Source: Promethearchaeota archaeon
GTDB lineage: Archaea > Asgardarchaeota > Lokiarchaeia > Sigyniarchaeales > SOKP01
Reading direction: 5' to 3'
Length of the DNA: 64,000 nt
Assembly: GCA_018238625.1 (NCBI GenBank)
Contig: JABCSY010000007.1
Location: 1-64,000 of the forward strand
A model generated the notes under the pieces. That model did not search any database. It was not told where the DNA came from and saw nothing but the letters and a program-made list of their open reading frames with translations. How positions within the stretch are numbered: position 1 is the stretch's first letter; each line of letters begins with the position of its first letter. The translations under genes were made by a program, and so were the position numbers. Below are positions 53,538 to 56,518 of the stretch, piece by piece.

Positions 53538-53744
53538 TTAATTATCCCGGAAAATTCTTGACTTTTCTTCATCTCGTTCCTCTTTGCAGTGAGGACAAAT
53601 CCACGTCTTATCGTTCTTTTTTACCGAATTTAAGCAAACATCGCAAACAGTGATATCGCATATGCAATAATGGCATTTATCTAATATATCTTTACAATCC
53701 TTCCCGCATATGTAACAATTAGGAGGGCTTTTGGTTTTGGACAT
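53538..53744 (-). CDS. Small cysteine-rich zinc-finger protein
   Basis: 68 aa; CYICGKDC, CHYCIC, CDVC, CPHC pairs. Confidence 0.6.
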   Translation of the reverse strand: MSKTKSPPNCYICGKDCKDILDKCHYCICDITVCDVCLNSVKKNDKTWICPHCKEERDEEKSRIFRDN

Positions 53745-53844
53745 TTTAAGTTTATATTTTAAATTCTTTTAATTATTATAATATTGATTATTATGAATAT
53801 TACTAATTAAATTTAACAAAATTATTTTTAGCAATATTAGCAAA

Positions 53845-54030
53845 ATGGACAAACTAAAATCGCGAGTTCAATTGCTTTCGCTTTTTATAATTTTTTTTAT
53901 ATATAAGGCTATAGCGGGTATTGTTGGTAATAATTTCTCTGAATCCGTTCTATGGTTTATGTTTTCTATTGTTTATGCTATATCTCTTACGATCTTATAT
54001 TTTACTTATAAAAAAAGGCAAATTTCATAG
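53845..54030 (+). CDS. Small two-TM membrane protein
   Basis: 61 aa, two hydrophobic segments. Confidence 0.4.
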   Translation: MDKLKSRVQLLSLFIIFFIYKAIAGIVGNNFSESVLWFMFSIVYAISLTILYFTYKKRQIS

Positions 54031-54089
54031 TTTAATTAATATTGACTAAGAAAATTAATAGATTGTTGATCTTCTTTGAAATGTCTTAT

Positions 54090-54374
54090 TCATTTCTTAG
54101 TCTTTTTTTTAAAAATATCCGGAATTAAACCCTCAATTCCAAAACGGTCCATAATAGTATCACTAATATCGACTTTAACTTTCATATCTTGCATAGCTTT
54201 TAACGATTCTCCTAACATTTTGGTGAAGCTCTCGCTCATTTCTTTAACAGCATTGGAAGTCAATTGAAGGGATTCCCGAATAGCAAGATTTGTCTCGTGT
54301 AATTCTAAAGTCATTTTTTCCATGCTTTTCCTCATTTCTGACATCTCATCTTTTAATCCCATTATCAATACCAA
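54090..54374 (-). CDS. Small coiled-coil/helical protein
   Basis: 94 aa; heptad-like MSEMRKSMEKMTLELHETNLAIRESL. Confidence 0.45.
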   Translation of the reverse strand: MVLIMGLKDEMSEMRKSMEKMTLELHETNLAIRESLQLTSNAVKEMSESFTKMLGESLKAMQDMKVKVDISDTIMDRFGIEGLIPDIFKKKTKK

Positions 54375-54539: not shown

Positions 54540-54677
54540 ATGTCTGAATGGAAATACAAAGTTAAAAAACCCGTAGCCGAAGAGGCCTTTTGTACTGGCT
54601 GAGGCATCGTTGACGGAATAATTTCGTGTATAAGTAATCTAAAAAAACAACGCAAAGAAAAGAAAAACCAAAAATAA
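54540..54677 (+). CDS. Candidate mini-selenoprotein 1 (one in-frame UGA at 54600-54602)
   Basis: MSEWKYKVKKPVAEEAFCTG[U]GIVDGIISCISNLKKQRKEKKNQK*, 45 codons, CxxU-type motif; hairpin element immediately 3'. Missed by the ORF track because TGA was read as stop. Confidence 0.6.
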
Positions 54678-54681
54678 ACTA

Positions 54682-54744
54682 AATCTCGAGGAGTAAAGCA
54701 AAAACGATAGGTTTTATTCCTTAGTTCCGCAAGAACTTGAGATT
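54682..54744 (+). promoter_or_regulatory. Candidate SECIS-like element 1
   Basis: AATCTCGAG/CTTGAGATT closing stem, GGAGTAAA/TTTATTCC stem presenting AAACGATAGG, AGTTC-CGCAA-GAACT hairpin; same core as 55041-55105. Confidence 0.5.
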
Positions 54745-54898
54745 AACTCTTACATTTTTACTTAACATTACTCTTTTTATTATTATAAAAAATTACTTAA
54801 TTGCGTGTTAACTTTATTTTTTATAAACCTAACCCTTAATACTCCTGATTTTTATAAATTTAATAATATATTTAATGATTTAAAAGTGAGAAAAACTT

Positions 54899-55048
54899 AT
54901 GTCGGAAGAAGACGAATTTGATTTTGGATTTGATGACAATTGCTATCAAACTAGTTGATCGTTACTTACTATGTGGTACTTAAGAGCTTTAAAAACGCAA
55001 AAAGCTAAAGAAAAAATGGATAAAAACATGAATAATAAAGATCTCTAA
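54899..55048 (+). CDS. Candidate mini-selenoprotein 2 (one in-frame UGA at 54956-54958)
   Basis: MSEEDEFDFGFDDNCYQTS[U]SLLTMWYLRALKTQKAKEKMDKNMNNKDL*, 49 codons; hairpin element overlapping the stop codon. Confidence 0.6.
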
Positions 55049-55105
55049 GATTAAGTCGTTAAACGATAGGATTTAATCGATAAGTTCTATGCAAGGACTT
55101 GAGAT
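55041..55105 (+). promoter_or_regulatory. Candidate SECIS-like element 2
   Basis: ATCTC-AAG/CTTGAGAT closing stem, GATTAA/TTAATC stem presenting AAACGATAGG, AAGTTC-TATGCAA-GGACTT hairpin. Confidence 0.5.
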
Positions 55106-55153: not shown

Positions 55154-56518
55154 TTAATAGGGTTTTTTTGGCCCTTCTCCAACCTTTCTGTAAATAAAAC
55201 CCTTTTCTTCAACCACTTTCTTGTCAAATATGTTCCTTCCATCTATAATAATCGCTGTTCTTACCTTCTTCTTTAAATCGTCAAGGTCGAGGTTATAATA
55301 TTCCTTATGGTTTGTTGCAAAGATTAATACATCAGCCCCTTTTACTGCTTCATTAAAATCACTTGTTAACTCAGTAAGTCTATAATCCCTTTCTTTTACA
55401 TACGGATCATGGGAAATGTATATAATGTTATGAGAATGATATCGATTTTGTAATACCTTAACAATATTTTCAGTTGGTGTATTTCTCACATCATCAGTAT
55501 TTGCTTTATATGATACTCCTAAAAGTACAATCTTTATATTATCTACTAGTTTATGGATTTCTCTAAATACATCCTCCATTAATTCAACCATATGGTAGGG
55601 CATATAATCGTTCAAGCTTCTTGAGTCAGGAATTATCTTTATTTTGGATTCGTTAATTTTTTCGGTATATTTATTAAATCCGTATAATAGAAGCCAAGGA
55701 TCTTTTGTCAAGCAATGTCCTCCTACGCCTGAACCGGGGTAATGCATCATTCTGTCGTGGCGTTGATTTATTAATTCTACAATTTCGTATATATTTCGAT
55801 TAAAATCTTCGCTTAATAACGCCATCTCGTTTGCAAATGCAATATTTACGTCTCGGTATGCGTTCTCTATGCATTTAGTTAACTCTGCCGTAAGGGTGTC
55901 TGTTATCTGAAGTTCTTTTTTAACAACCTTCGCGTACAAATACATAGCTTTATCGTTGGCCTCTTTACAACCACCACCAATTACCCTAGGAAAATTTATG
56001 ATATAGTCCAATAACTTACCGGGCATTACGCGCTCAAACGAAAAAACAAGATAGAAATCCTTACTCCGCTTTAAACCACTTCCTTCTTCTAAAATAGATT
56101 GTACAACATTATCTGTCGTTCCAGGTGCTACTGTAGATTCAAGTATGACTGTGGCACCCTTTTTCATGTGTTTTGAAATCTGTTGAGAAACTTCCTTTAA
56201 AGATTCGTACCTTGGGGTCCTCTGGTCGTCTACAGGCGTTTGTACATCAATTAAAATATAATCCGCATTTTTGACATCGTTATATTTGTCAGTAACTTTA
56301 AATTTTCCATTTTTTACTACTCTTTCAATTAGCTCATCTAATCCAGGCTCATCTCCTTCAAAAGGATTTTTACCGCTATTAAGCCAATCAATTTTCCAAC
56401 TAGATCTTTGAGACCTTCGTTGAATACCAGTAACATAGAAATCGTCTACATCAGCTAACAGAGCAGCCATCGGAATACCAACGTATCCCATACCAATTAC
56501 AACGATGTTAGTAGGCAT
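55154..56518 (-). CDS. Nucleotide sugar dehydrogenase (UDP-glucose/UDP-ManNAc 6-dehydrogenase family)
   Basis: 454 aa; GMGYVGIPMA, ESTVAPGTTD, GSGVGGHCLTKDPW, GVSYKANTDDVRNTPT. Confidence 0.9.
   Translation of the reverse strand: MPTNIVVIGMGYVGIPMAALLADVDDFYVTGIQRRSQRSSWKIDWLNSGKNPFEGDEPGLDELIERVVKNGKFKVTDKYNDVKNADYILIDVQTPVDDQRTPRYESLKEVSQQISKHMKKGATVILESTVAPGTTDNVVQSILEEGSGLKRSKDFYLVFSFERVMPGKLLDYIINFPRVIGGGCKEANDKAMYLYAKVVKKELQITDTLTAELTKCIENAYRDVNIAFANEMALLSEDFNRNIYEIVELINQRHDRMMHYPGSGVGGHCLTKDPWLLLYGFNKYTEKINESKIKIIPDSRSLNDYMPYHMVELMEDVFREIHKLVDNIKIVLLGVSYKANTDDVRNTPTENIVKVLQNRYHSHNIIYISHDPYVKERDYRLTELTSDFNEAVKGADVLIFATNHKEYYNLDLDDLKKKVRTAIIIDGRNIFDKKVVEEKGFIYRKVGEGPKKPY

Follow-up and report, generated by a model that had tools for sequence, protein, structure and literature searches.

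Small selenoproteins of the SelW type carry a CxxU redox motif where a helix begins. The selenoproteins of Asgard archaea were surveyed in 2024 by homology search from known families, seven of which were listed, and a Sec-containing peroxiredoxin-like (Prx-like) family is already known from Lokiarchaea (PMC11227280). The eSECIS-like elements of Asgard selD and frhD (type I/II) lie 3' of the gene and combine an outer stem with a long hairpin bearing apical adenines (PMC11227280), and all of these traits recur in the elements described here, which, as stable structured elements in the 3' UTR, have one of the features by which Asgard eSECIS-like elements are recognised.

Here, we describe a locus of a Lokiarchaeal MAG with two tandem mini-ORFs, A and B, belonging to protein families that are absent from the 2024 list (PMC11227280). 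The consulted passages of a 2026 review add no family of this kind (PMC13188914), our literature text searches returned no report of either, and neither family had a match in Pfam or NCBIfam. Both families, new and with a probable variant SECIS, escaped earlier surveys because no known selenoprotein is homologous to them.

Locus organization

The window, that is, the whole 64-kb stretch of DNA that was analysed, includes the following features:

53538-54374: three small proteins encoded upstream of A and B, one zinc-ribbon-like (68 aa), one membrane (61 aa) and one coiled (94 aa)
54540..54677, + strand: mini-selenoprotein A ORF, 45 aa with U = TGA, MSEWKYKVKKPVAEEAFCTGUGIVDGIISCISNLKKQRKEKKNQK
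54600..54602, + strand: in-frame TGA of ORF A (predicted Sec21), CxxU motif; TGA in 48/48 family A genomes
54682..54744, + strand: candidate SECIS A, three-way junction with outer stem AATCTC/GAGATT
54688-54722, + strand: hairpin 1 of SECIS A, A-rich loop AAAAACGATAG
54723-54737, + strand: hairpin 2 of SECIS A, CGCAA loop
54899..55048, + strand: mini-selenoprotein B ORF, 49 aa with U = TGA, MSEEDEFDFGFDDNCYQTSUSLLTMWYLRALKTQKAKEKMDKNMNNKDL
54956..54958, + strand: in-frame TGA of ORF B (predicted Sec20), CxxxxU motif; TGA in 29/30 copies, TGT (Cys) in 1
55041..55105, + strand: candidate SECIS B, three-way junction as in SECIS A

The original prediction had placed here a pair of ORFs with one internal TGA each, and its coordinates and translations for A and B are borne out; it had also taken the two for members of a single family, whereas they belong to two different protein families. 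Both are almost certainly selenoprotein families, undescribed until now and overlooked by ordinary gene finders. The A-B locus is largely syntenic among relatives, with a convergent gene for a UDP-sugar dehydrogenase downstream (55154-56518, - strand) and, upstream, the block of three small unannotated proteins, which is shared across genera and without a Pfam match.

Distribution of the two families

A strict DNA pattern gave no match, and a covariance model was therefore used, built at first from the window's two element copies and applied alongside protein profiles. In the window's own genome, the only matches of this model above chance level were the two window elements, and among 297 relatives strong matches were confined to the window's own taxonomic family; the relatives that bear names are Candidatus Lokiarchaeota or Lokiarchaeia MAGs. 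Strong matches were frequently paired, approximately 310-380 bp apart, and with few exceptions a mini-ORF of family A or B with its TGA lay upstream of them. When 232 genomes of the phylum were searched with the profiles, family A was recovered from 48, always with a single internal TGA. Family B was represented by 30 copies in 28 genomes, and 29 of these copies likewise have exactly one TGA; the products range from 45 to 60 aa. As far as found, both families are confined to one Lokiarchaeal taxonomic family. Family A includes one frameshifted copy (G023) and a few members lacking the Cys of CxxU. Weak family A matches beyond the taxonomic family were rejected (E > 8e-4, inside long unrelated frames), and no relatives of family B were found on viral contigs.

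The model with the three-way-junction structure (R2) was searched over 66 genomes, and every one of its nearly 80 strong matches lay at A/B genes; the elements travel with the ORFs across relatives. Other weak element matches (L175, L177, L179-L187), which folded poorly or lacked a plausible frame containing a TGA, were taken as chance. Family B was never found without A, each B genome having an A gene or an A element (in G056, a contig end truncates the A gene), and the two therefore probably act together as a pair.

The UGA position

Neither UAA nor UAG was found at the UGA position in any family A or B copy from the 232-genome search. The sole Cys homologue found is a family B copy (L150, genome G038; ...DDDCYYTSCSLINMWHRRALK...) in which TGT replaces TGA. 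Downstream of this copy there is no element, the best model score being 9 bits; the adjoining family A gene retains its TGA and an element that scores 77 bits. Such coincident loss of the UGA and the element is what would be expected of Sec and its SECIS, and the altered B copy beside an intact A constitutes a ready-made natural control. No Cys homologue was found among the 48 family A genomes.

Sequence constraint extends beyond the UGA in both families. Estimates of dN/dS from close pairs (Nei-Gojobori, JC; the raw all-pairs values were saturated) were, for family A, 0.38 on the 5' side of the UGA and 0.25 on the 3' side, and for family B 0.16 and 0.24, respectively, indicating purifying selection 3' of the UGA. 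Variability by codon position followed the order 2 < 1 < 3 on either side of the UGA in both A and B, with positions 1 and 3 nearly equal in family B after the UGA.

Structure of the 3' element

The related hairpins that the original prediction described 3' of each ORF are present, but each proved to be a three-way junction and not a single stem-loop. In both elements (~65 nt each; folding versus shuffles, z -4.05 and -2.84), an outer stem ATCTC/GAGAT surrounds two hairpins, of which the long one bears an A-rich loop and the other is short, and the TAA stop of ORF B (55046-55048) sits inside the junction of SECIS B. The exact decamer of that prediction, AAACGATAGG, is common to both elements and has no further exact copy within the 64-kb window, although relatives keep just approximately AAA[U/C]GNUAG. 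The full model scores 74.8 and 67.2 bits at the two elements, far beyond chance, the next-best site in the 64 kb reaching 16 bits.

Across 46 aligned elements, 94.3% of cells are paired and two-sided (compensatory) changes occur in 15 of the 20 base pairs; none of 500 shuffles matched any of the measures, and pairing was destroyed when the partners were slid. The outer stem is the least variable part, with two-sided changes in one pair, so that covariation speaks less strongly for it than for the two hairpins. The unpaired adenine run that opens the apical loop is invariant (AAA in 46/46).

The AUGA_GA quartet core (NUGA...[G/A]A) is absent from most mini-gene elements: the loose published pattern occurs in 27 of 76, and since the NUGA form occurs in just 9 of 76, most of them would escape a search with the published pattern (PMC11227280). 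The bulge typical of methanogen-type eaSECIS, GAA_A beneath a short upper stem rich in G/C, was not seen on inspection of the folds by eye, and a search of Rfam returned no family; a sub-threshold snoRNA match was discarded.

Selenocysteine machinery

SepSecS was detected in 64 of 66 genomes, including that of the window, which also contains two tandem selD genes, each with an in-frame TGA and its own SECIS (G000:C148:29888-32282; L004/L005), and two frhD genes with two in-frame TGAs apiece. The tRNA-Sec gene, located via synteny with SepSecS, lies just upstream of it (G000:C107:14173-14328; L174:574-729), and is missed by the Rfam tRNA-Sec model because two introns, in the D-arm and the T-loop, interrupt it. 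When spliced by eye, with the exact intron ends being our choice, it was recognised as tRNA-Sec with anticodon TCA. A T-arm intron is already known in Lokiarchaeal tRNA-Sec (PMC5330540); the second intron, in the D-arm, may not have been known previously.

Comparison with known selenoprotein genes

Over the 66 genomes, the best R2 match away from A and B immediately follows the stop codon of a Prx-like gene that contains Sec (...FRDINUPFCRWH...), which is present with an in-frame TGA in about 30 genomes of the taxonomic family. At five Prx-like loci, R2 scored 24.6-35.6 bits at the right place and on the right strand, compared with no more than 16.9 elsewhere in that set. The Prx-like gene shares with the mini-genes the same genomes, an in-frame TGA and a 3' element that can adopt the same three-way junction with an A-rich apical loop. 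Its loop, AAATGNTAG, is identical to that of the mini-gene element in some copies, whereas the outer-stem and second-hairpin sequences differ, and its product, a peroxiredoxin-like enzyme of 140-160 aa with a UPxC motif, is unlike the mini-proteins. In the window's genome, the elements of selD1, selD2 and both frhD genes carry the [A/U]UGA_GA quartet that the mini-gene elements mostly lack; a second hairpin is clear in the folds of selD2 and one frhD, and is possible in the remaining selD and frhD elements, although it is not part of their predicted fold.

Decoding of the UGA

Coding past the UGA, the UGA/Cys exchange, covariation of the element, co-inheritance and the machinery all emerge from sequence comparison, and Sec insertion at the UGAs of A and B is very likely. 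We hold with high confidence that A and B are tandem selenoprotein genes in which UGA would be decoded as Sec by the archaeal machinery via a 3' SECIS. The tests that the original selenoprotein interpretation had named as able to refute it (a genome lacking Sec machinery, no conservation 3' of the UGA, UAA or UAG in homologues, hairpins not conserved with the ORFs) were run, and none did so; the covariance-model search it proposed, to which protein profiles were added, recovered A from 48 genomes and B from 28, the window's genome proved to contain SepSecS, two Sec-SelD and tRNA-Sec, and the Cys-for-U homologue it had asked for exists in a single case, the element-less B copy.

Alternatively, the structure could stimulate readthrough of UGA without Sec, with insertion of Trp, Cys or a near-cognate amino acid. 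The absence of the canonical quartet from most element copies would agree with this, but we regard this explanation as very improbable: Cys is the one sense replacement found, in a copy that has also lost its element, a similar topology lies 3' of Prx-like, selD2 and one frhD, all of them known Sec genes, and SepSecS is present in nearly every genome. Termination at a genuine stop, leaving a peptide of ~20 aa and a downstream structure that acts as a terminator or small RNA, would be more improbable still. Each element does lie directly 3' of a short ORF, and whatever transcript contains it could allow it to fold, but purifying selection and the codon-position pattern persist past the UGA, the other two stop codons never occupy that position, and the Cys homologue reads straight through. 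Selenocysteine insertion is also compatible with a different function, in which the pair is mainly a selenium sensor or store and not a redox enzyme or switch. The tiny size, the lack of a known fold and the absence of a known Se gene nearby would agree with such a role, which we nevertheless consider unlikely, if much less so than the two preceding explanations, given that the conserved nearby Cys (CxxU/CxxxxU) and the invariant downstream D, W and Y point to chemistry, and that the adjoining gene on the - strand is convergent, so that A and B are not leader peptides for it.

Putative function and wider implications

With A and B read as selenoproteins, the UGA would be decoded by tRNA-Sec, SepSecS, Sec-SelD and presumably EFSec, and insertion would be directed by a SECIS starting at the stop codon or a few nt away, a predicted three-way junction of a long hairpin, with an A-rich apical loop ending in UNAG, and a short second hairpin. 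AlphaFold2 models, small in size and of only moderate confidence (pTM 0.42-0.44), predict for each protein a flexible N-terminus followed by a single helix. In A this helix begins just before Sec and in B a few residues earlier, placing Sec near its N-terminal end. Relative to Sec, a Cys lies at -3 in A and at -5 in B. Together with the invariant downstream D of A and W-Y of B, it points to a reversible S-Se bond, and the arrangement would suit a selenenylsulfide redox switch or a reductant; the function of A and B would be that of a small redox pair. Family A resembles SelW in its Cys-x-x-Sec redox motif at a helix start, and differs from it in that its 45-60 aa are predicted to form a single helix without a thioredoxin-like fold.

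The quartet-less elements would represent a separate SECIS class. More tentatively, and with somewhat less than an even chance in our estimation, Lokiarchaea may possess quartet SECIS (selD, frhD) beside quartet-less three-way-junction SECIS (mini A, mini B, Prx-like), with the mini pair forming an obligate two-selenol redox couple of single helices; if true, this would be a previously unknown kind of selenoprotein. A and B would lengthen the short list of archaeal selenoprotein families by two, in the lineage closest to eukaryotes, and nearly 80 natural copies define a mostly quartet-less three-way junction whose structure bears on SECIS recognition without SBP2 and on the origin of eukaryotic SECIS.

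Additional copies

An element-like sequence in G026 (L178:1576-1641), which lacks an intact mini-ORF and adjoins a distant nucleotide-sugar dehydrogenase, may be a relic of the A-B locus. The single-contig genome G054 (L057, L044) carries extra copies: at 190 kb, two B genes come after an A element, before which our script found no intact A ORF, and at 2.13 Mb there is a second A+B pair.
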